From NCBI GenBank assembly GCA_029850515.1, contig JARCRW010000093.1:1-48090 (forward strand): DNA of 48,090 nucleotides, read 5' to 3'. This DNA comes from Nitrosotalea sp. GTDB lineage: Archaea; Thermoproteota; Nitrososphaeria; Nitrososphaerales; Nitrosopumilaceae. Below, piece by piece: positions 14,121 through 25,563 of the stretch. A program made the position numbers and the translations under genes. The stretch's first letter is position 1. Every line of letters starts with the position of its first letter. The notes under the pieces were generated by a model. It saw only the letters and a list, made by a program, of their open reading frames with translations. It did no database searches and had not been told where the DNA came from.

Positions 14121-15779
14121 TCATGGTGGTGTTCCACCAATTACATATGATGAAGTTGGAGGCATTGAAATTATCACGCCATTCATCCAAGTGTACTGTG
14201 GATCATAAAATCTAACAATTCCAGTATCATTTACAACAACCATGAATGTTTGTCCTGGAGCTATCTTACCACTTACTATTTTTCCATCAGGGGTAAATGG
14301 ATTATCATTTTTTTGTGTGCTAACACCACTGAAAATGGTATGATCTATAGAATCATTGTTTATCCAAATGATGGGAGTGCCAGGAACTATCTGTATAGTA
14401 TCTGGTGTATAGTACGTATTGTATTGATTATACGTCTGCAGAGTTGCGGTTCCCCTTGGTGATGATGAGCCCGGATTTATACTAATTTTAATTGGAGCAA
14501 TTTGACCTGTGGTTGCAGGTGTTGAAATAATAATTCCATTTATCCATGTATATGTTGGATCAAAGATTTGCGTAGAACCAGTTCTACTAAAAGTAATTTG
14601 GTAATGCTGCCCTGGGGCTATTATACCGCTATCAATATTTCCATCTGAAACAAAGTGAGGACTAACTGTTTTTCCAGCAGCGCCTTTTCCACCCGCACTC
14701 TCTGTTGTTGATATTAACTGGCCACTCATTATTCGATGTGGAACAGAATCGTTGTTAGTCCAAACTACAACTGTACCTGGTGTAATTTGGAGTGATGATG
14801 GTGAAAGGAACTGTCCATTATTAGAATTAGATGAGCCGCTAACTATGTTCATTTGAACTGTTTGTGTTTGCATTGTTTGTGAAAGTGGTGCAATTATTCC
14901 TACCATGAATTGGTAAGTGGGATCAAAGAAGGTAATGTCACCTACTGTTTCGTCTTGTGGAATGTTGTAACGTGCTGCAACCCTAGGATCTAATGATTGA
15001 GTAGTATCAAAACTAGTTATTGTATACTGGAATGATTGCCCTGGGGCTATTATACCGCTATCGATCTTGCCATCTGGAATAAGCGCGGTGGATGATTGAT
15101 TAGTGGTTAGTACTTTTGCCACACCACTCATTATTCGATGTGGAACAGAATCGTTGTTAGTCCAAACTATGGTGGTACCAAGAGTCACTTGTACATTTGA
15201 TGGAGAATAGTGAACTTGGTTGTTGATATCATATGCGCTTGGTAGGATGCTTATGTTCACTGTAGACGATGATGTAGGCTGAAGTGTGGTTGTTGGTTTT
15301 GTAATTACAGCATTAGTAGATAATATTTTAGCACTGTAACTTACTTTCATAGTTTCAGATCCAGTTATCTTTCCTGATATACTAAAAACAGAACCATCTT
15401 GATTGCTATCTATTATTCTTCCAAACAAATTGAGATGAATCATGTTTCCATTTTCATCCTGTGCATTACCTTGGATTACAAAGTACTTGCCATCTCGCAA
15501 GATTGAGACTTGCCACAATCCAGAATTAAGATATTGAGTATTTGCTATAGTAACAAGGCCATTATCAAGTGTGGCTTGTGTACTACTTCCATTATTAGAT
15601 CCTACCGTAATCTGTAAAGCAATACTTGAATCAAAAATAGTTTTATTTCCTGAGAGATAACCTGAGGCATCAATCAAGTATTTTCCATTAGATGAGAAAT
15701 CAGAATATGCATTAGGTAAATACACCATAGTAGCAGCAAGTCCTGCAATTACTATTAGAAACAGAAATACGTATTTCAT
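14121..15779 (-). CDS. Secreted protein with three cupredoxin-like repeats lacking Cys
   Basis: 552 residues with a hydrophobic signal peptide (about 1-26, MKYVFLFLIVIAGLAATMVYL). A beta-rich N-terminal domain (27 to about 165) is followed by three plastocyanin-like repeats at about 180-300, 310-420 and 430-545. Each has a TPGTxVxWxNND strand, a histidine (His214, His348, His480 in VPHRIMSG or IDHTIFSG), an SGIIAPGQ turn and an FDPxYxxMxGII end. Type I copper sites need Cys-His-Met in the last loop; here that loop is FDPTY/YDPQY and the whole protein has no cysteine, so blue-copper electron transfer is unlikely. Possible roles are a cell-surface scaffold or a metal buffer. Confidence 0.85.
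   Translation of the reverse strand: MKYVFLFLIVIAGLAATMVYLPNAYSDFSSNGKYLIDASGYLSGNKTIFDSSIALQITVGSNNGSSTQATLDNGLVTIANTQYLNSGLWQVSILRDGKYFVIQGNAQDENGNMIHLNLFGRIIDSNQDGSVFSISGKITGSETMKVSYSAKILSTNAVITKPTTTLQPTSSSTVNISILPSAYDINNQVHYSPSNVQVTLGTTIVWTNNDSVPHRIMSGVAKVLTTNQSSTALIPDGKIDSGIIAPGQSFQYTITSFDTTQSLDPRVAARYNIPQDETVGDITFFDPTYQFMVGIIAPLSQTMQTQTVQMNIVSGSSNSNNGQFLSPSSLQITPGTVVVWTNNDSVPHRIMSGQLISTTESAGGKGAAGKTVSPHFVSDGNIDSGIIAPGQHYQITFSRTGSTQIFDPTYTWINGIIISTPATTGQIAPIKISINPGSSSPRGTATLQTYNQYNTYYTPDTIQIVPGTPIIWINNDSIDHTIFSGVSTQKNDNPFTPDGKIVSGKIAPGQTFMVVVNDTGIVRFYDPQYTWMNGVIISMPPTSSYVIGGTPP
14608..14633. repeat. 26-bp intragenic direct repeat, copy A
   Basis: Identical over 26 bp to 15037-15062. It encodes the SGIIAPGQ turn of the second cupredoxin-like repeat. 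Identity at synonymous positions points to recent duplication or conversion. Confidence 0.85.
14722..14767. repeat. 46-bp intragenic direct repeat, copy A
   Basis: Identical over 46 bp to 15124-15169. It encodes the VWTNNDSVPHRIMSG segment of the second cupredoxin-like repeat. Confidence 0.9.
15037..15062. repeat. 26-bp intragenic direct repeat, copy B
   Basis: Second copy of the 14608-14633 sequence, in the first cupredoxin-like repeat of the protein. Confidence 0.85.
15124..15169. repeat. 46-bp intragenic direct repeat, copy B
   Basis: Second copy of the 14722-14767 sequence, in the first cupredoxin-like repeat. The two repeat pairs are not equally spaced (114 versus 87 bp between starts), so an insertion or deletion lies between them. 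Confidence 0.9.
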
Positions 15780-16478: not shown

Positions 16479-17912
16479 TTGTTGAAAGAAGAAGTTTCCT
16501 CGGCTATAACTTATGCATTAAGTAAAGGCTTTCAGATTCATCCTGATGCGTTTAAGATATTAGAAAAAATTGACATAAAAGAACTCCAAAGCATAATCAA
16601 ACAGGTTGTTCGAGAAAAAGCTAAACAAAATATGTTTTTAATTAATCAAAGTGATCTCAAAATGTTTGTAGAATCAGAAATAGATGACAGTATTGAAAAT
16701 AATCATGTGATTTTGTTTGATCCCACGAAAAAGGTTACGTCTGCAGAGGGGATTGAGGGTTTTCATGCATTATTCAAAGACAGGTACTCAAAATTACTTA
16801 AAATCATGATGCAACGTTCACAGTCAAAGAAACTAACTCCCATCTCAAATGTGACAAATGGTAAGTTGGATGATGAGACTTACATCGCAGGCTTGTTGAT
16901 GGATAGAAGAATAGACAGGGATGTTACCAAGATAGTAATTGATGATCCTACAGGCTCAATAGAACTGTTAATTTTTAATAAAGAGATACAGGAAACTGCA
17001 AATTCTCTGCAGATTGATCAGTTTGCCATGATATCAATTGCAAGTGGAAAGAATGGAGGATTTTTTGTTAAGGAAATTCTTGTTCCAGACATACCTGATC
17101 ACATAGCAAATCGTTCAAAGAGTGAGACCTATGCTGTATTCATCTCGGATTTACACGTGGGCAGTAAATTCTTTATGGAAAAAGAGTTTACCGAGTTTGT
17201 TTCATGGCTTTCAAGCCCTGATCCTATAGCAAGAAAGATCAGATTTGTACTGGTGGGAGGGGACATTATTGATGGAATAGGTATTTTCCCAAACCAAGAC
17301 AAAGAGCTCTTACTACTAGATGTGGACCAACAGATGGCAAAGGCCACCGAGCTTTTAGACAAGATTCCAAAACACATTAAGGTCTTTATCATTCCAGGAA
17401 ACCATGACCCGGGAAGACGAGCTCTTCCCCAGCCAGCAATTCCAGAAAAGCACAATATGCGCCTCTGGAATAGAGAGAATTTTTTCATGTTGGGAAATCC
17501 CTCTATGCTTGAGCTAAATGGTGTAAAGATACTGATGTTTCACGGCCAAAGCCTTGACGATGTTGTTGGTAGTACTCCTGGGCTAAGCTATGCACAACCA
17601 GCAAAAGCCATGCGGGTTTTGCTAAAAACTAGACATCTCAGTCCAATATATGGTAAGAGAACTCCGATTGCACCAGAGTTGGAAGATATGATGGTAATAT
17701 CTGAAGTTCCAGATATCTTACATTCTGGCCACATACATGTAGTTGATCTTGACATGTACAAGGGAACATTAATTGTAAACTCTGGCGCGTGGCAAAGCCA
17801 GACTCCATTCCAAGCCAGTGTTGGAATTAGTCCCACTCCAGGAATTGCTATTATAGTGAACCTTGCCACAATGAAGGTTTTTACAAAAGACTTTACAGAA
17901 AATTCTAGCTAA
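16479..17912 (+). CDS. polB: DNA polymerase D small subunit (DP1)
   Basis: Proofreading 3'-5' exonuclease subunit of the replicative PolD. 477 residues: an N-terminal helical region (1 to about 50), an OB fold (about 130-205) and an MRE11-like calcineurin phosphodiesterase domain. Metal-binding motifs are complete: SDLHVG (223-228), GGDIIDG (260-266), GNHDPGRR (307-314), MFHGQSLDD and HSGHIHVVD. The nuclease is therefore probably active, unlike eukaryotic B subunits. The start is TTG 16479; an ATG at 16471 runs into a stop after four codons. It converges on orc1/cdc6 with 2 nt between stops, and the large subunit lies 4.3 kb away. Confidence 0.96.
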   Translation: MLKEEVSSAITYALSKGFQIHPDAFKILEKIDIKELQSIIKQVVREKAKQNMFLINQSDLKMFVESEIDDSIENNHVILFDPTKKVTSAEGIEGFHALFKDRYSKLLKIMMQRSQSKKLTPISNVTNGKLDDETYIAGLLMDRRIDRDVTKIVIDDPTGSIELLIFNKEIQETANSLQIDQFAMISIASGKNGGFFVKEILVPDIPDHIANRSKSETYAVFISDLHVGSKFFMEKEFTEFVSWLSSPDPIARKIRFVLVGGDIIDGIGIFPNQDKELLLLDVDQQMAKATELLDKIPKHIKVFIIPGNHDPGRRALPQPAIPEKHNMRLWNRENFFMLGNPSMLELNGVKILMFHGQSLDDVVGSTPGLSYAQPAKAMRVLLKTRHLSPIYGKRTPIAPELEDMMVISEVPDILHSGHIHVVDLDMYKGTLIVNSGAWQSQTPFQASVGISPTPGIAIIVNLATMKVFTKDFTENSS

Positions 17913-17914
17913 GA

Positions 17915-19156
17915 TCACAAGAGATCTTCTAAGGCCAGATCTTCCTTGAATGCTTTTTTTACTATATCGGCGTTCAGTGTAAGATTGAATTTTTTTGTCC
18001 TTCCATGCATCCCTTGATGAATAATTTTTCCTGTGATTAATCCAGTCATTTCTATTTCACTTAGCATTTGTGTAATTCTCCGCTGGGTTAGTTCTTTTTG
18101 TCTTGTAATTTTACAGAGGTTTTTGTATGATTGGTATATCTCACCGGTTGTGTTTCCGCTTGCTTTCATTACTCCAAGTATGAGTAGTTTTTCATGTAAT
18201 GGGTATGAATTCAATGCAGTGGTTTCCTTATCTTCTTCCATCTTAAGAGCGGCTTTTCGTATGTGTGCTTCCTTTACTGTATCAGATTGTTCACGTTCGG
18301 CAATCTCACCTGCAACACGCAAAAGATCAATTGCTCTTCTTGCATCTCCATGTTCTTGGCCAGACATCGCAGAACATAGATTTAGGGCTGCTTGGTCCAC
18401 AGTATCCGGTATAAAGGCTACCTTGATTCGTTCTTCAAGTATTTCATTGATTTGTCCAACAGTATAATTGGTAAAGATTACCTCTTCCTCACTCAAACTG
18501 CTTAAAACTCTGGGGTCTAGACGTTCTTTGAATGTGAGATCATTAGAAATTCCAATTAAGGTTAATGTGCCTTTTTTAAGCCTCTCGTTGGCTCTAGTTA
18601 ATGAATAAAATACATCTTTACCTGATTTGGAAACAAGTTCTACAAGATAATCTATCTCATCTATTACAAACACCGTGTTTAGACCATTTTTCTCAATTAC
18701 TGAAATAATGCGATTGAATACTTCACTAATTGAAAGTCCTGTAGAAGGTAATTCTTTTTGTGATGTTAGACCTAGTTGTCTGCCCAATTTTACTAGTAAT
18801 CCATAGAGAGTTGTCTCTTCTTTTGCATTAGCATAAAGTAGTTGAATTGGGAAAGAATTGTCCTTTACTCGTTCTTGTATCTTACCAAGAACTTTCTTTA
18901 CTACTAGTGTTTTACCTGTACCCGGCTTCCCATAAACTAGTAGGTTGGAAGGACGTGATTTTTTTAATAGGGGTAATAGTGATTGGGTGACTTTTTTTTG
19001 TTCATCTTCACGATGTAAAATTATATCAGGAATAAATGTAAAATGTAAGACTTCACGATTTTTGAATAGTGATTTTCCACTTTGAGCATCATCTAATAAT
19101 TTATCAATTGGATCTTTTGTCATTGACGCACACACCATTGTTTCTTCTCTATCCAC
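17915..19156 (-). CDS. orc1: Origin recognition / Cdc6 ATPase (Orc1/Cdc6)
   Basis: Replication initiator of 413 residues that binds origin boxes and loads MCM. Walker A is GKPGTGKT (76-83), Walker B is VFVIDEIDYL (162-171), and a sensor-1 segment LTLIGISNDL is followed by the Orc1/Cdc6-specific DPRVLSSLSEEE. A C-terminal winged helix (about 320-410; TTGEIYQSYKNLCK, ELTQRRITQMLSEIEMTGLI) reads origin DNA. The listed start is GTG 19156, but in-frame ATGs at 19138 and 19123 are also possible. It faces away from the adjacent 439-bp non-coding region, the classic place for an origin that it controls. Confidence 0.96.
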   Translation of the reverse strand: MDREETMVCASMTKDPIDKLLDDAQSGKSLFKNREVLHFTFIPDIILHREDEQKKVTQSLLPLLKKSRPSNLLVYGKPGTGKTLVVKKVLGKIQERVKDNSFPIQLLYANAKEETTLYGLLVKLGRQLGLTSQKELPSTGLSISEVFNRIISVIEKNGLNTVFVIDEIDYLVELVSKSGKDVFYSLTRANERLKKGTLTLIGISNDLTFKERLDPRVLSSLSEEEVIFTNYTVGQINEILEERIKVAFIPDTVDQAALNLCSAMSGQEHGDARRAIDLLRVAGEIAEREQSDTVKEAHIRKAALKMEEDKETTALNSYPLHEKLLILGVMKASGNTTGEIYQSYKNLCKITRQKELTQRRITQMLSEIEMTGLITGKIIHQGMHGRTKKFNLTLNADIVKKAFKEDLALEDLL

Positions 19157-19234
19157 ATATGGATTCTACTCAATTAATTAGATTAGAATAGAATAACTAA
19201 ACCAAATTTAGTATATCATTAATTATTTTTATTT

Positions 19235-19259
19235 TTATTAAAAAAAATTTTTTTAATAA
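19235..19259. repeat. 25-bp A/T-only perfect palindrome
   Basis: A 12-bp arm (TTATT plus seven A) is mirrored exactly by seven T plus AATAA around one central A. No G or C occurs in it. It lies about 80 bp upstream of orc1 and is a good candidate for the DNA-unwinding element; it could also belong to the orc1 promoter. Confidence 0.8.
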
Positions 19260-19355
19260 AGCTAGAGTGGAAGTATAGGTGTGTGAGTCTTCCTAATATG
19301 ATATTAACAATTAGTGAACTTTCTGTTAATATTAGGTCCAGAAAAGCCAGAAATG

Positions 19356-19378
19356 ACCCCCTTATTTCCAGTCCAGGC
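19356..19378 (-). repeat. ORB-like origin repeat 1
   Basis: 23 bp identical to 19418-19440. Read on the minus strand it contains CTGGAAATAAGGGGG, close to the archaeal mini-ORB pattern TGGAAAC-AA-GGGG with its G-run. The 62-bp copy spacing is about six helical turns, and both copies are in the same orientation. Orc1/Cdc6 is the expected ligand. Confidence 0.7.
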
Positions 19379-19417
19379 GTGAAGATGACTCTTAACAATG
19401 TTAATATCCAGAAGAAT

Positions 19418-19440
19418 ACCCCCTTATTTCCAGTCCAGGC
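19418..19440 (-). repeat. ORB-like origin repeat 2
   Basis: Second identical 23-bp copy. Both copies are preceded on the plus strand by related sequence (TTAATAT...CCAGAA) for about 25 bp, so the ancestral duplicated unit is longer than the perfect core. Confidence 0.7.
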
Positions 19441-19522
19441 ATCAGTTTTAGGTATTTTAAATATAAAGCCAAAAGAGCCTGTTAAGGTGTCAACCACATC
19501 TATTCGTGGCCTAGGCAGTGAA

Positions 19523-19546
19523 TGTTAACAAACCTCTATGTTAACA
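19523..19546. promoter_or_regulatory. Pair of TGTTAACA palindromes
   Basis: Two perfect 8-bp palindromes at 19523-19530 and 19539-19546, with centres 16 bp apart, lie 50-73 bp upstream of the ATG at 19596. Partial copies (TGTTAAT, TTAACA) recur at about 19304, 19324, 19392, 19399 and 19569. They may be an operator of the downstream gene or sites for a second origin-binding protein. Confidence 0.45.
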
Positions 19547-19595
19547 ATTCTTCTATGATCTATTCAAGTGTTAATGGGTTATCAGATCGATCTCA

Positions 19596-19994
19596 ATGGC
19601 CCGAAAAAGAATTAGAATAGACCTGGAAGACTCGGATGGAGCCAAATACAACTTTAGCCTAGAGGGTAATGTTACTCGTGAAAAGATGTTAAAAATATTT
19701 GAACTGATGAATCTTATGAATATAGAAGAGCCGGAGGGGGGAGGAGCCCAATTGGACTCCATAGGAGCCAAGATATGGAATATTATAGACAAGAATTTTC
19801 CCATAGGCAAATTTACCTCTTCAATAATATTGGAAAAATATGAAGACGAGTATGAGGAACCAATTAAGCTGAGCGTGATTTCCACCTATCTATCCAGATT
19901 TGCGGTAAAGGGCAAGGTGATGAGGGAAAAACAGGGAAAAGAGTGGGCCTACCAGATACTAAAGATAGCCCAAAGGGAAAAGAGTGGGCCTTAA
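19596..19994 (+). CDS. Origin-adjacent winged-helix-like protein
   Basis: Unrecognised 132-residue basic protein. The N-terminal 30 residues look like a two-stranded segment (KRIRIDLEDSDGAKYNFSLEG), then a helix (EKMLKIFELMNLM), a Gly/acidic linker (EEPEGGGAQ) and a probable winged helix at 57-125 (IGAKIWNIIDKNFPIGKFTSS, then LSVISTYLSRFAVKGKVMREKQ and GKEWAYQIL). Its position just beyond the origin repeats suggests a DNA-binding role in initiation or its control (inference). The last 20 codons include an 18-bp direct duplication that repeats the reading GKEW as REKSGP in another frame. The stop overlaps the convergent AbrB-like gene by 3 nt. Confidence 0.7.
   Translation: MARKRIRIDLEDSDGAKYNFSLEGNVTREKMLKIFELMNLMNIEEPEGGGAQLDSIGAKIWNIIDKNFPIGKFTSSIILEKYEDEYEEPIKLSVISTYLSRFAVKGKVMREKQGKEWAYQILKIAQREKSGP
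19933..19991. repeat. 18-bp direct repeat at the 3' end of the winged-helix gene
   Basis: AGGGAAAAGAGTGGGCCT occurs at 19933-19950 and again at 19974-19991, 41 bp apart. The offset is not a multiple of three, so the second copy is read in another frame and ends at the stop codon. It looks like a small duplication that reshaped the C-terminus. Confidence 0.85.
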
Positions 19995-20143
19995 GAAATT
20001 ACTACCTTTTTGACCACTAGGTGATCTTCCTCTATTGTGATCCTAACGTAATCGCCTTTCTGAAGTTCCAAGAATTTTCTAAAGTCTTTGGGGATTGAGA
20101 TTGTTCCTGCAGTAGTTATTTTAATTAGTTGTTCATTAGGCAT
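19991..20143 (-). CDS. AbrB/SpoVT-type (MazE-like) DNA-binding protein, 50 aa
   Basis: Short gene translating to a swapped-hairpin AbrB domain: MPNEQLIKITTAGTISIPKD, then FRKFLELQKGDYVRITIEED and HLVVKKVVIS. The pattern 'T..G.ISIPK.FRK.L.L.KGD.V' is the family hallmark. Such proteins bind DNA as dimers and act as transition-state regulators or antitoxins. No PIN or MazF-like toxin lies next to it, so a solitary regulator is more likely. Start ATG 20141-20143. Its 3' end overlaps the origin-adjacent gene by 4 nt, tail to tail. Confidence 0.85.
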   Translation of the reverse strand: MPNEQLIKITTAGTISIPKDFRKFLELQKGDYVRITIEEDHLVVKKVVIS

Positions 20144-20316
20144 GTTATTGTATTATAAGAACAATAATTTAAGAATTTACAATTATCTAAGATTATTAAA
20201 TTATAATGATTTTTAATGGGTTGATAGAAAATTAAAGAGATTAGGAATTAATCAAATATAAAATAGCGAGGGACAAGTCATAATTTTCTGATCTGAAAAC
20301 TATTGTATTCTAAAAG

Positions 20317-20877
20317 TTATTGGGCTGGTGCCATCTTGACAATCCCTATCCTTGTAAGACCCTTATCAGTTATTTTATAAGAAAATGGCTTTGTTGTCAT
20401 ATCTCTTTCGACCAAGCCCTCCTCAAATAACTTCTTTAACATACGTGACGTGTGCTCTCTAGTTCTTCCTAATGTGACCTGGATGTCACGTGATGTCATA
20501 GATTTCTCTGTGATTAAGCGTAGAACATGATCAGTGACATTTCCAAACTGCATATTCTGAATTCTCTCTCTTGGCTTCTCCTCTTTAGTCATTACCGGAG
20601 GCTCTTGCTGTACTCTTTGCTCCTTGGGCTTTGGAATTTGTGCTTGGGGAATTTCTTGTGTTTCTTGTGCCATTTCTATTGAATCTAAACGAATTTTCAT
20701 ATCAATCAACAAATTTTCATAATACTGCAAGCGTTCTGTTAGAATTTTTGCATTTTGAGCATCTGATGTCAGTCGTGGCTTTACCTTATTGTATACTGTA
20801 ATAGCTATCAGTCCGCCAATAAATGATGCAAATACACCTAAAATGACTCCTACATCTGGTATGTCTACTAACATCAC
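20317..20877 (-). CDS. Membrane-anchored winged-helix protein
   Basis: 186 residues in three parts: one N-terminal membrane helix (about 8-28, VGVILGVFASFIGGLIAITVY); a coiled-coil-like segment (about 38-70) and a Pro/Gln/Glu-rich linker (about 72-108); and a C-terminal winged helix (about 112-180; TDHVLRLITEKSMTSRDIQVT, TREHTSRMLKKLFEEGLVERD). This places a DNA-binding domain on the cytoplasmic face of the membrane. The role is unknown; a membrane-tethered transcription factor or a DNA-tethering protein is possible. The start is one of two adjacent ATG codons. A candidate operator lies upstream. Confidence 0.75.
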   Translation of the reverse strand: MMLVDIPDVGVILGVFASFIGGLIAITVYNKVKPRLTSDAQNAKILTERLQYYENLLIDMKIRLDSIEMAQETQEIPQAQIPKPKEQRVQQEPPVMTKEEKPRERIQNMQFGNVTDHVLRLITEKSMTSRDIQVTLGRTREHTSRMLKKLFEEGLVERDMTTKPFSYKITDKGLTRIGIVKMAPAQ

Positions 20878-20953
20878 GATGTAACGTCAAATGATGTGAT
20901 TTATCATGTTTGAGTAAAATTATTTCACATCTTACACATCAATACCAAACATA

Positions 20954-20973
20954 TCTTATCACATCTTATCACA
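20954..20973 (-). promoter_or_regulatory. Tandem TGTGATAAGA decamers, candidate operator
   Basis: Two abutting 10-bp copies (20954-20963 and 20964-20973) place identical faces one helical turn apart. A related TGTGAT...TTATCA arrangement at 20895-20906 overlaps the probable TATA region of the membrane-anchored winged-helix gene, and further TCACATC/TTACACATC words lie between. They could be autoregulatory sites. Confidence 0.4.
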
Positions 20974-21009
20974 ACCCTTTACCAAAATACGCCTAATTTT
21001 GAAGCCAAA

Positions 21010-21372
21010 TTATAGATTACAAGTTCGTTTTAGTAATTCATGTATCACAGACATGATTTGTTCCTCACGTTCTGGAAAAACATCACTACTTTGTATCACA
21101 GAAACCTGTTCGGAAAGGCGATTTATCACATCCACATCATCATCACTTAGTACGCCTAGGCTTCTAAGTAGGATCCATGAATAACATAATGCGGTCAACT
21201 TGTCTTTAGATTGAGTTACTTGTCGATAAAATGCCCCTTTACTGATAGTAAACTGTGAATCAACAAGGTCCCTACGTTTTAAAATAATTGCAATTTGTCT
21301 TTCAGTAAACAATGATTTTTTTATAATTTGCCTAATAATATTACTAAAATTATCACCGGGGGGGTTGCTCAT
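21010..21372 (-). CDS. Hypothetical helical protein, possible HTH
   Basis: Unrecognised 120-residue mostly helical protein. I start it at ATG 21372 (MSNPPGDNF); a frame extension to 21402 adds 10 residues that overlap the promoter. The segment FTERQIAIILKRRDLVDSQ followed by ISKGAFYRQVTQSKDKL resembles a helix-turn-helix with a basic recognition helix. The C-terminal half is an acidic helical bundle, perhaps for dimerisation. It is the upstream neighbour, same strand, of the membrane-anchored winged-helix gene (132 bp apart). Confidence 0.6.
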   Translation of the reverse strand: MSNPPGDNFSNIIRQIIKKSLFTERQIAIILKRRDLVDSQFTISKGAFYRQVTQSKDKLTALCYSWILLRSLGVLSDDDVDVINRLSEQVSVIQSSDVFPEREEQIMSVIHELLKRTCNL

Positions 21373-21437
21373 AGCTATACAGATTTGTATAACTATATTC
21401 AATTAAACTTTTAATCAATAGATATTCAACCATACAT
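21373..21437. promoter_or_regulatory. Divergent promoter upstream of GGGP synthase
   Basis: A 65-bp A/T-rich gap between divergent starts. CTTTTAATC (21408-21416) is centred about 26 bp upstream of ATG 21438, and on the other strand TTGAATATAG (about 21395-21404) is about 26 bp upstream of ATG 21372. Both fit TATA boxes of leaderless transcripts. Confidence 0.4.
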
Positions 21438-22187
21438 ATGCAACAGACAGAGAATTATCTTCACGCTACAAGAAAGAAAAAGGGGCCACTTCTCTTCGTA
21501 CTAATAGATTCTGAAAATTCTGCAGGACGTTCTGCCTCAACATTGGCAAAAGAAGCGGAAAAAAATGGTGCCTCTGCAATTTTGGTTGGTGGCTCATCAG
21601 CTACTGATCAACTCACTATGACTGAGACTGTATCTAGTATCAAAAAATCAGTCAAGATACCTGTAATTCTCTTTCCTGGAAACGTTACAGGCGTGGTTCC
21701 TGGTGCTGATGCAATACTTTTTAGCTCACTTTTGAACTCTGATAATCCATACTTTATATCACAGGCACAAGCCTTGGGAGCACCAAGTGTTCTAAGATTT
21801 GGTCTCGAACCTCTTCCTACAGCCTATATCATTATTGGTGAAGGAACAACTGTATGGCATGTAGGCTCAGTAAGAACAATTCCCTTTGACAAGCCAAGCC
21901 TAGCCGTCATGTATGCTTTGTCTGCCCAATTCATGGGAATGCGATTTGTGTATTTAGAAGCAGGTTCTGGAGCCAAATCTAATGTGAAACCTGAAATGGT
22001 TGCTGCAGTAAGGAAACTTTTCAAGGGATTTCTTATAGTAGGCGGAGGTATTCGTAGCCCAGAAACCGCTGAGGAAGTAGCAAAAGCTGGTGCAGATGCC
22101 ATCGTAATTGGAACTTTCATTGAGAAGGGCGGAAGTTTCAAAACGATTTCCGATATCGTAAAAGCCATCCAATCCATAAGGAAATAA
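21438..22187 (+). CDS. Geranylgeranylglyceryl phosphate synthase
   Basis: Joins geranylgeranyl diphosphate to sn-glycerol-1-phosphate, the first committed ether-bond step of archaeal membrane lipids. 249 residues, TIM-barrel of the PcrB/GGGPS family. Visible motifs are FVLIDSENSAG near the start, ILVGGSSATDQLTM, VILFPGNVTGVVPGADAILF, MRFVYLEAGSGAK and the phosphate-binding FLIVGGGIRSPETAEEVAKAG with ADAIVIGTFIEK. It is followed by the PolD large subunit gene after one base, so the two are co-transcribed and probably translationally coupled. Confidence 0.95.
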   Translation: MQQTENYLHATRKKKGPLLFVLIDSENSAGRSASTLAKEAEKNGASAILVGGSSATDQLTMTETVSSIKKSVKIPVILFPGNVTGVVPGADAILFSSLLNSDNPYFISQAQALGAPSVLRFGLEPLPTAYIIIGEGTTVWHVGSVRTIPFDKPSLAVMYALSAQFMGMRFVYLEAGSGAKSNVKPEMVAAVRKLFKGFLIVGGGIRSPETAEEVAKAGADAIVIGTFIEKGGSFKTISDIVKAIQSIRK

Positions 22188-22188
22188 C

Positions 22189-25100
22189 ATGTCTGAGAAC
22201 CTAGCATTGAGACTTAAAGAGGTCCCAATGCCTCAAGATTATTTTGGGTATTATACCAAGATATCAGAGGAAGTCTTTACTATTTTTGAACAAGCCGCAT
22301 CTGCCAAGGCAACACTTGCAGATTCTTCTGGGATGGTAGAACCAAAGATCGCTTTTGATCTTGCAGATCGTGTATCAAAAATGCACGACATTGACGTAAC
22401 TGACAATCTGAGGTCTCTCATACAAAATACCACTAAAGAATTGGCTGCACTAAGGCTTGCAGAAGATATAGCCCAAGGCAAGTATTCTGGACCTGATACA
22501 GATCTTCAGGAAAAACTTGATCTTGCAGTACGTGTGGCTTTGGCCATAGTCACAGAAGGAGTCACAATTGCTCCACTTCAAGGCATAAGTGAGGTTCTGA
22601 TCAAGAAAAATGCAGATGGCACTGAATATCTATCTGTATCATTTGCAGGTCCTATCAGATCAGCGGGAGGAACAGAGGCTGCCTCCACCATGCTCATTGC
22701 AGATCATGTGCGAAAGATAGCGGGGCTTTCAAAATATCAGGCAAATTCATTTGATGATGAGACTGGCCGATTTGTAGAAGAGTTGAGGGTATACGAAAGA
22801 GAGGTTGGGAGCTTTCAATTCCATGTTCCTGACCAGGATGTGATAAATGTAATCTCTAATCTTCCAGTAGAACTTGATGGTGTAGATACCGACCTAGTTG
22901 AGATTGTGAGCCACAGAAACATGGTGCGAATAGGCACCAATAGGGTTAGAGGAGGTGCACTTCGTGTTCTAAATGATGGTCTAATCGGGAGATCTCGCAA
23001 ACTACTCAAACTCATTGAATTATACAAACTCGATGGCTGGGACTGGCTCAAAGACCTCAAGGGGGCCATTCAAACAGGAGATGCTGATGCAGCAGCCCAT
23101 AGGATGAGAGAGGTGATTACAGGAAGATCAGTGCTTTCCATGCCTAAAAAGCTTGGGGGATTTCGACTAAGGTATGGTCGTGCCTGCAATACTGGATTTG
23201 CTTCAATTGGCATTCATCCAGTAGTTGCAGAAATACTTGACCATGCAATAGCAGTAGGTACCCAGATTAAGCTCGATGTGCCTGGAAAAGCCTCAACCGT
23301 AGCCTTTGTAGACTCGATTGATACCCCCATTGTCAGACTAGTCAATGGAAATGTTGTAAAAATAAAGGACACTGCACATGGAATTTCACTAAAACCACAT
23401 ATTGCAAAGATTTTGCATCTCGGTGATATTTTGATTAGCTATGGAGACTTTTTAGAAAACAATGCTGAACTCATACCGACTGGATATGTGGAAGAGTTTT
23501 GGGCTCAGGAATTACAAGATAAAGTATCCAAGTATGAACCAAATGACACTGAACTTCTAAGTTATGTATCAAAGGTACCAGATCTGGATGAGGCCTTTAG
23601 GATATCATTGAATTTTGGTATTGGTCTTCATCCACATTATCTGTACTATTGGGATCAAATTATAATTGAAGAATTTGAAAAAATTCTCAAACCTACAAAA
23701 TTTGATCCAGACCTCATCATTTATCCAATAGATGCAAAAGATGTTCTGGAAAAACTAGGCGTTCCACATGAAGTTGCAGAAAACACTCTTCTTCTAAAAG
23801 ATGTAGAGGCCAAGGTCTTTTTCTATTTGTTATTTAGAAAGCAAATCCAACTTGAAAAAGATCTTTCTGTCCCACAAATCATAACAAAATCATCTGGCAT
23901 AAAAATACCAAATAAATTTTCAACCTCTATTGGAGTGAGGGTTGGAAGACCAGAAAAAGCTGCACTACGAAAAATGAAGCCTCCGGTACACACTTTATTT
24001 CCAGTAGGAAACAAGGGTGGGGCATCTCGTGATTTGCTCAAGGCAGCAAAACAGCCTAACTTTTACTGTAACATATACAACAGATTCTGCAAAAAGTGTA
24101 ATATCCCTTCTATTAGTATAGCATGTCCCAAATGTAACACAAAAACAAGTACGATTTTCATATGTAACAAGTGCAGAGATGAGCTCGAGACAGACTATTG
24201 CACAAAATGCAAGAGCAGGGCACATGGACACTCGTATCGCTCATTTCCTCTCAAAGATCTCTTGTATGCTGCTCAGGAGAAGACTGGATTTAGAGCTCAG
24301 GAGCCATTCAAGGGTGTAAAGGAGCTTATAAACCAAGACAGGGTGCCAGAACCACTTGAAAAGGGTCTAATAAGGCAAAGTCTCGGACTTAATGTCTTCA
24401 AGGATGGGACAATAAGATTTGATACGACTAACGCACCTCTCTCGCACTTTAAACCATCTTGGATTGGAACAACCCCAGAAAAACTAGTTGAGCTTGGATA
24501 TACTCATGATACAAACGGCAATCCACTACAAAACTCTAATCAACTTGTTGAGCTCAGAGTACAGGACGTAATAATACCCAAAGAGTGTGGAGACAGTCTT
24601 GTTTTTGTCTGTCAGTATATTGACCGAGAGCTTACAAAACTTTTTGGGCGCCAGCCGTTTTACAATGTGAAAAATACTGATGATCTTGTGGGCCATCTCA
24701 TAATTGGTCTTGCGCCGCATACATCTGTTGGAATTGTGGGTAGAATAATTGGATACACCAATACCCAAGTGTGCCTTGGAACTGCGGTATGGCATTCTGC
24801 AAAAAGGCGTGATGCTGACGGCGATGCAGATTCTATCATGTTGTTAATGGACAGTCTGCTTAATTTCTCAAGATTATTTTTATCTGACAGAATAGGAGGA
24901 CTGATGGATGCACCACTGCTTGTTCAACCTATTGTAATTCCGCAAGAAGTACAAAGACAAGCTCATAACTTTGAGGTTGTAAAGGCGTATCCACTTTCAT
25001 TCTTTGAAGCTACACTTAGAAGGGAAAAGGCAAGTGAGATCAAAGATGTTGAGATCCTAAAATCAAGACTAGAAACAGAAAGGCAATTTCTTGGACATGA

Positions 25101-25563
25101 TTTTACACACATAACATCTACGCTGACCACATCGAAATCAAGGAGTGCTTATTCTACACTTGGTTCATTACTTGAGAAGCTTGACATGCAGATAAGAACT
25201 GCAGACATCATAAATGCGGTTGACCCAAGTGAAGTAGTTTCAATGGTGATGACCACTCACCTGCTTCCAGATATCATGGGAAATCTTCGAGCATACTCTG
25301 GCCAATCTTTCCGATGTACTACATGTGGTGCAAGCTACCGAAGAGTTCCTCTTGTTGGAAAATGTCTTGAATGTGGCAATAGGCTAATTCAAACCATGAC
25401 TAGGCCCTCTGTACAAAAATATCTCAAACTAGCAAGGAGAATGCTGAACAAATATACGATATCGCCCTATCTTCGAGGACGTGTACTTTCCCTCTTGGAT
25501 GAACTGGAGTTAGTTTTTGGTAAAGAAGAAAATAGCCAATCTATTCTTACAGACTTTGCCTAG
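22189..25563 (+). CDS. polC: DNA polymerase D large subunit (DP2)
   Basis: Catalytic subunit of the replicative PolD, with the double-psi-barrel active site shared with RNA polymerases. 1124 residues, no intein. The GPIRSAGGTEAASTML block near 152, the acidic active-site loop KRRDADGDADSIML near 870-883, a Cys-rich zinc region at about 624-683 (FCKKCNIP, CPKCN, CNKCR, YCTKCKS) and a C-terminal zinc ribbon near 1044-1065 (CTTCGASY, CLECGNRL) are visible. It partners with DP1 encoded at 16479. It is convergent with glyA and the stop codons overlap. Confidence 0.97.
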   Translation: MSENLALRLKEVPMPQDYFGYYTKISEEVFTIFEQAASAKATLADSSGMVEPKIAFDLADRVSKMHDIDVTDNLRSLIQNTTKELAALRLAEDIAQGKYSGPDTDLQEKLDLAVRVALAIVTEGVTIAPLQGISEVLIKKNADGTEYLSVSFAGPIRSAGGTEAASTMLIADHVRKIAGLSKYQANSFDDETGRFVEELRVYEREVGSFQFHVPDQDVINVISNLPVELDGVDTDLVEIVSHRNMVRIGTNRVRGGALRVLNDGLIGRSRKLLKLIELYKLDGWDWLKDLKGAIQTGDADAAAHRMREVITGRSVLSMPKKLGGFRLRYGRACNTGFASIGIHPVVAEILDHAIAVGTQIKLDVPGKASTVAFVDSIDTPIVRLVNGNVVKIKDTAHGISLKPHIAKILHLGDILISYGDFLENNAELIPTGYVEEFWAQELQDKVSKYEPNDTELLSYVSKVPDLDEAFRISLNFGIGLHPHYLYYWDQIIIEEFEKILKPTKFDPDLIIYPIDAKDVLEKLGVPHEVAENTLLLKDVEAKVFFYLLFRKQIQLEKDLSVPQIITKSSGIKIPNKFSTSIGVRVGRPEKAALRKMKPPVHTLFPVGNKGGASRDLLKAAKQPNFYCNIYNRFCKKCNIPSISIACPKCNTKTSTIFICNKCRDELETDYCTKCKSRAHGHSYRSFPLKDLLYAAQEKTGFRAQEPFKGVKELINQDRVPEPLEKGLIRQSLGLNVFKDGTIRFDTTNAPLSHFKPSWIGTTPEKLVELGYTHDTNGNPLQNSNQLVELRVQDVIIPKECGDSLVFVCQYIDRELTKLFGRQPFYNVKNTDDLVGHLIIGLAPHTSVGIVGRIIGYTNTQVCLGTAVWHSAKRRDADGDADSIMLLMDSLLNFSRLFLSDRIGGLMDAPLLVQPIVIPQEVQRQAHNFEVVKAYPLSFFEATLRREKASEIKDVEILKSRLETERQFLGHDFTHITSTLTTSKSRSAYSTLGSLLEKLDMQIRTADIINAVDPSEVVSMVMTTHLLPDIMGNLRAYSGQSFRCTTCGASYRRVPLVGKCLECGNRLIQTMTRPSVQKYLKLARRMLNKYTISPYLRGRVLSLLDELELVFGKEENSQSILTDFA

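Follow-up and report, generated by a model that had tools for sequence, protein, structure and literature searches.

The window analysed here (the whole stretch of 48,090 nucleotides, contig 93 of a draft genome of 97 contigs, 1.70 Mb and 99.55% completeness) carries an orc1/cdc6 gene between the genes for the two PolD subunits, with the longest intergenic gap of the window directly beside it. Named relatives of its Orc1 belong to Ca. Nitrosotalea and to further Thaumarchaeota (96% for Ca. N. devanaterra, among the best 80 of 152 loci) and the same genome encodes an archaeal AmoA, so that the host is taken to be a Nitrosotalea-like member of the ammonia-oxidising archaea, which are very abundant. 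Separately, positions 14121-15779 encode a protein of 552 aa that combines a copper domain of the plastocyanin type (Pfam Copper-bind) with internally repeated similar stretches; proteins with such copper domains are typical of ammonia oxidisers. The features of the locus are listed below, where counts out of 78 refer to usable gaps (the window and 77 relatives, from the best 80 of 152 loci).

16479-17912, plus strand: PolD small subunit (DP1), from domain search
17915-19156, minus strand: orc1/cdc6, sole copy detected in the genome; candidate starts GTG 19156, ATG 19138 and ATG 19123
19124-19595, no strand: probable replication origin region, intergenic from orc1 to p132
19129-19151, minus strand: ORB4, weaker, at the orc1 start and facing ORB3, in inverted repeat I1; core in 64/78 gaps
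19152-19262, no strand: A/T-rich stretch between ORB3 and ORB4, presumed DUE, holding an A/T-only palindrome at 19234-19260
19263-19289, plus strand: ORB3, weaker, inverted, an arm of I1; core in 76/78
19304-19309: TTAAC box 8; core in 71/78
19324-19329: TTAAC box 7; core in 69/78
19356-19378, minus strand: ORB2, tandem, full ORB, 62 bp from ORB1, exact repeat; pair in 78/78
19392-19404: TTAAC boxes 5 and 6, TTAACA-N-TGTTAA between ORB1 and ORB2; cores in 53/78 and 78/78
19418-19440, minus strand: ORB1, tandem, full ORB, exact repeat; pair in 78/78
19480-19485: TTAAC box 4; core in 75/78
19523-19530: TTAAC box 3, palindrome TGTTAACA; cores in 78/78 and 74/78
19539-19546: TTAAC box 2, palindrome TGTTAACA; core in 78/78
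19569-19574: TTAAC box 1; core in 77/78
19596-19994, plus strand: p132, conserved divergent neighbour of 132 codons with a winged-helix-like model
22189-25563, plus strand: PolD large subunit (DP2), from domain search

With the gene set picked by hand from the list of open reading frames, the gap between orc1 and p132 measures 472 bp from ATG 19123 or 439 bp from GTG 19156, against 338 bp for the runner-up, and is the largest non-coding gap of the window, as originally described. The adjoining orc1/cdc6 is likewise intact (Cdc6_lid, Cdc6_C and AAA domains, with a TIGR02928 score above the cut-off), and the flanking PolD genes are where they had been placed. A 92-aa open reading frame inside the gap (19219-19497, minus strand) was rejected as spurious, its frame being broken by stop codons in 77 of the 78 sequences aligned (best 80 of 152 loci), and an RNA family search of 17000-23000 returned no match. 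Between p132 and the PolD large subunit lie two small conserved genes (20317-20877 and 21010-21402) whose order is kept across relatives, one with a C-terminal winged helix and the other with no assigned family. No second orc1/cdc6 was detected in the genome of the window; a distant second Orc1/Cdc6, 29-31% identical, is present in some Nitrosotalea genomes (G035:C1:120505-121638, G014:C1:201047-202213 and G018:C283:125982-127148).

The two identical 23-bp direct repeats that the original prediction had singled out are present and can be identified as tandem ORBs. The minus-strand sequence of the repeat, GCCTGGACTGGAAATAAGGGGGT, agrees at 17 of 20 bases with the common archaeal ORB given in Table 1 of the Ori-Finder 2 article (PMC4164010), TCCA[CG]T[TG]GAAA[TC][GA]AAGGGGT; some relatives within the order but outside family f1 (e.g., G043, G122 and G144) match this tabulated motif in full. 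Searching the genome of the window with the 20-letter ORB pattern at up to 3 mismatches gave five matches, two of them perfect and both within the gap, the other three lying elsewhere with 2, 2 and 3 mismatches, while a reversed control pattern gave one. No other strong ORB site was thus found outside the gap, and the repeat core is not scattered over many places. Closer to orc1, the inverted repeat I1 (19125-19151 and 19263-19289, 74% complementary) encloses the A/T-rich stretch, for which a role in unwinding is presumed, and in which the predicted A/T-only palindrome was recovered as two 13-bp arms (19234-19246 and 19248-19260) with 100% complementarity. The gap therefore presents what is expected of an ORB-type origin: it adjoins orc1/cdc6, holds at least two consensus-like ORBs and an A/T-rich stretch between inverted, degenerate ORBs, and its elements are local to one chromosomal place (for the TTAAC words, as judged from sampled stretches rather than whole genomes).

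To follow the locus in close relatives, we compared 82 entries, namely the window, the close relative G005 and 80 loci of named relatives (the best 80 of 152). Gaps were counted in 78 of these, leaving out L038 and L039 (too little upstream sequence), L063 (none) and L091 (no p132, with the tandem ORB pair visible); these 78 gaps are redundant and fall into 54 groups under 90% identity. Within this set from the best 80 of 152 loci, the tandem ORB pair occurs in every gap with a spacing of 62 bp (57 gaps) or 61 bp (21 gaps) and starts 158-172 bp from p132, whereas ORB3 and ORB4 have degenerate sequences, with no ORB4 core in 14 of 78; the ORB tallies of these gaps permit up to 5 mismatches from the ORB of the window itself, and are hence biased towards it. 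Across the same 82 entries, the gene order dp1-orc1-gap-p132-wh186-p130-pcrB-dp2 recurs wherever the contig is long enough, except in L084 (dp1 and dp2 not in range) and L065 (orc1 shortened, dp1 reversed), and columns conserved at 90% or more make up 36% of the origin gap vs. 23% of the neighbouring p132-wh186 gap (73 sequences, best 80 of 152 loci). The syntenic locus in relatives, suggested beforehand as a place to look, thus retains both the pair and its spacing.

The gap also contains a second repeated element. The TGTTAA words noted at the outset amount to 10 TGTTAA/TTAACA words at 8 places, where 3000 dinucleotide shuffles average 0.63 and never exceed 4, and gaps of relatives carry 8-13 words (median 10, 78 gaps), single cores being kept in 53-78 of 78 gaps and in 34-54 of the 54 groups under 90% identity (best 80 of 152 loci). 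Away from the origin such density was not encountered in the sampled sequence: 472-bp windows in 40 off-origin stretches of G005 reached at most 5 words, and among windows from 20 G035 stretches, those with at least 7 all lay at the origin. The pair TTAACA-N-TGTTAA has 3 further copies in the genome of the window and single words also occur elsewhere; among 10 genomes searched, the exact 13-mer lies at the origin in 7, only elsewhere in G037 and G053, and nowhere in G043, with further copies in G000 (3), G005 (1) and G035 (1). The special feature is the cluster of TTAAC words, not the single word or the pair. None of the 8 boxes falls between ORB3 and ORB4, or between ORB3 and orc1, and no regular period in their spacings was obvious by eye. 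In the alignment, conserved GATC words at 19557-19560 and 19589-19592, in the p132 leader, flank the outermost box.

Boxes around ORBs recur in other families, as where CATTAACAGTGTTAATAGTCAACTTAACGCTCCAGTGGAAAC of G057 aligns with ATTAACATTGTTAAGAGTCATCTTCACGCCTGGACTGGAAA of the window. In G053, ~2.4 kb containing open frames separates the start of p132 from the array, which remains beside the ORBs, where 15 of the 16 GTTAA/TTAAC five-mers of the stretch sit at 24834-25038. For G037, provided that its contig is a circle, the counts are 17 five-mers next to the ORBs, all inside the first 560 bp, and 9 spread over the last 3 kb, of which three come within 230 bp of where p132 starts. As p132 is ~2.4 kb or more away in these two genomes and the array is still with the ORBs, the array is not simply the promoter of p132. 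The same two genomes (G037 on the same condition) bear on a broader alternative, in which all conserved elements would be promoter or operator sites of the divergent orc1 and p132, i.e., initiator autoregulation, and replication would start elsewhere. Both promoters are indeed expected within a gap between divergent genes, and ORB4 abuts the orc1 start; against it speak the position of the array in G053 and G037, beside the ORBs and kilobases from p132, and, in the accessible portions of reviews, the role of ORBs as sites of the initiator at origins mapped in other archaea. We regard this alternative as highly improbable as a replacement for origin function, with which autoregulation may nevertheless coexist.

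We conclude that chromosomal replication in this Nitrosotalea-like ammonia-oxidising archaeon very probably starts in the gap, in keeping with the original prediction. This reading draws on the ORB match and its near-uniqueness, the single detected orc1, the enrichment, conservation and synteny observed above, comparable layouts in further families, and the placement of related origins in the published passages available. The gap is probably also the only origin of the chromosome, although a second one may exist in a draft of 97 contigs. The skew extremum proposed as a further check returned a weak and mixed signal from sampled sequence (40 x 20 kb for G005 and 20 x 20 kb for N. devanaterra, about 41% and 22% of the genomes). 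In G005, the GC skew difference across orc1 (at 1.46 Mb) was 0.0186, near the best split of 0.0191 at 1.48 Mb. Permutation yields a difference of at least that size at orc1, a position set in advance, in 2% of cases, and a split matching the best one at any point of the circle in 25%. The expected extremum did not appear in the AT skew of G005 (best splits at 0.395 and 1.34 Mb, away from orc1), in the GC skew of N. devanaterra (best split at 0.19-0.27 Mb, with orc1 near base 1) or in the cumulative skew of the window, which has no local extremum at the gap.

From this arrangement a tentative order of events may be drawn. Orc1, the product of the adjoining gene, would bind the ORBs. Facing each other from either side of the A/T-rich stretch, ORB3 and ORB4 would guide the MCM helicase onto this stretch, which would melt, and the tandem ORB1 and ORB2 would act as an outer initiator arm. 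As for the eight TTAAC boxes that surround and separate ORB1 and ORB2, another origin protein would most likely bind them, or Orc1 would do so in a different mode, and their binder would shape or regulate the initiator complex.

How far the array extends among archaea was judged from the sequence upstream of orc1. A first genome set suggested an element of ammonia oxidisers only, with at least 5 words in 9 of 9 amoA-positive genomes and 0-2 per 900 bp in 12 of 12 amoA-negative genomes with usable upstream sequence (G059 had just 82 bp), the latter showing 0-5 scattered words over up to 1500 bp. Wider sampling of 40 more upstream stretches refuted this: the amoA-negative families f18, f20 and f22 carry arrays of 4-11 words per ~960 bp (G061 7, G068 7, G064 6, G074 9, G078 4, G072 11, G076 7), f10 and f19 have none, and f21 has 3 words. 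Within f1, the amoA-positive genomes G125 and G167 have only 4 words each, and four genomes without a detected amoA have an array (G159 5, G161 12, G162 13, G179 9 words), perhaps because these drafts are incomplete. The sampling took in a minority of the f1 genomes and neither G130 nor G067, whose orc1 begins at the edge of a contig. Beyond the class, 20 of 40 genomes with an orc1 match were sampled, from 17 families; their stretches held 0-5 words, G205 being represented by just 268 bp, with the exception of G215 at 8, so that the array is not wholly restricted to the class. The simplest reading is that the array would have arisen early in the class and disappeared from several families, the alternative being independent gain.

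What the boxes do can be weighed from their position and company. That they serve transcription control of orc1 only, with no part in replication and with the ORBs alone marking the origin, is conceivable but on the doubtful side: the array stays with orc1, yet its boxes are interleaved with the ORBs, the ORB3-orc1 interval of the window is free of them, and a pair of boxes sits between tandem ORBs in several families. Binding by p132 appears unlikely. The gene is present in 78 of the 82 entries (best 80 of 152 loci; upstream sequence is scant or absent in the remaining four), each of the 8 genomes with boxes that were searched has one such gene, and its AlphaFold model, built with 33 sequences, shows two strands and a helix followed by three helices and a hairpin, an order that seems winged-helix-like at modest model confidence (mean pLDDT 68). 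Foldseek matches to this model were weak (best E 0.09) and mostly winged-helix regulators among the 50 matches listed, with no significant PDB match; sequence searches against Pfam and NCBIfam gave no match, the best PHROGs and PDB hits having E 0.027 and 0.13. Against p132 as the binder, it adjoins orc1 in families with and without boxes (without, e.g., in G042, G045, G046, G047, G048 and G049) and lies kilobases from the array in the two genomes above. Its helix KLS[VIML].STYL shows small differences from the corresponding helix in most array-less families, which may reflect descent only. It is similarly improbable that the boxes are a second kind of Orc1 site: TTAAC abuts or nearly abuts an ORB in other families (e.g., G053, G037 and G152), but Orc1 is also found in array-less families, and the helix before its wing (LTQRR...) looks similar in both groups.

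The ORBs themselves differ in f1. Their 156 ORB1 and ORB2 copies in the 78 f1 gaps start with TGGA (103) or TAGA (53) (best 80 of 152 loci), while those of other families start mostly with TCCA and in some cases with TGCA, TTCA or TACA. The wing of Orc1 contacts DNA, and its motif is G-R-[YRH]-G-R in 19 of 19 rows of other families, GRYGK in the PDB relatives 2qby and 2v1u, and G-[IMT]-H-G-[RN] in 82 of 83 f1 rows, one being gapped (best 80 of 152 loci). The change from TCCA to TGGA/TAGA coincides with a change of the wing, a correlation that is only suggestive since both may go back to one evolutionary event. Putting both strands together, we give an even chance to the proposal that the TTAAC array is an ancient second cis-element of the origins of this class, interleaved with the tandem ORBs, bound by a dedicated origin protein and lost in several families, and that in f1 (Nitrosotalea/Nitrosopumilus) initiator and ORB changed specificity together (TCCA to TGGA/TAGA; wing G-R to G-I/M/T).

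The origin resembles known ones in its ORBs. Nitrosopumilus maritimus has one mapped origin (PMC4010727 and PMC5333045, citing Pelve 2013), and that of Ca. Nitrosocaldus cavascurensis was predicted with Ori-Finder 2 and placed by analogy before ORB repeats and cdc (PMC5797428); both share with the window ORB repeats beside cdc6, whereas the accessible passages of these descriptions mention no TTAAC element. Sulfolobus oriC1 (ORB2-DUE-ORB3 with orc1-1 adjacent; available text of PMC12141716) likewise has inverted ORBs flanking an A/T-rich stretch next to orc1, to which the window adds the tandem full ORB pair 62 bp apart outside the DUE and the TTAAC array, its DUE-flanking ORBs being weak. The ucm/UBP element of Sulfolobus origins is also a second conserved cis-element besides ORBs, but ucm sits inside the DUE, halfway from ORB2 to ORB3, and the ucm oligo in that text has no GTTAA/TTAAC, while all boxes of the window lie outside the ORB3-ORB4 interval. 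According to the same source, ubp is a recent acquisition in Desulfurococcales and Sulfolobales. In the open papers searched, origins of ammonia-oxidising archaea are mentioned only briefly, and in the accessible literature, which includes few subscription papers and so leaves absence unproven, we found no description of a TTAAC element.

As origins of ammonia oxidisers beside ORBs and orc1/cdc6 are already in print, in the published portions available, the origin is the expected find and ordinary in kind; the conserved second element is the less expected part, and worth testing. Dhanaraju et al. 2025 (PMC12141716), in the accessible text, close by asking whether divergent archaea have UBP-analogous origin proteins, and the TTAAC array offers an exact bait sequence for seeking them, just as the joint change of ORB and wing in f1 offers a testable case of initiator-origin co-evolution.
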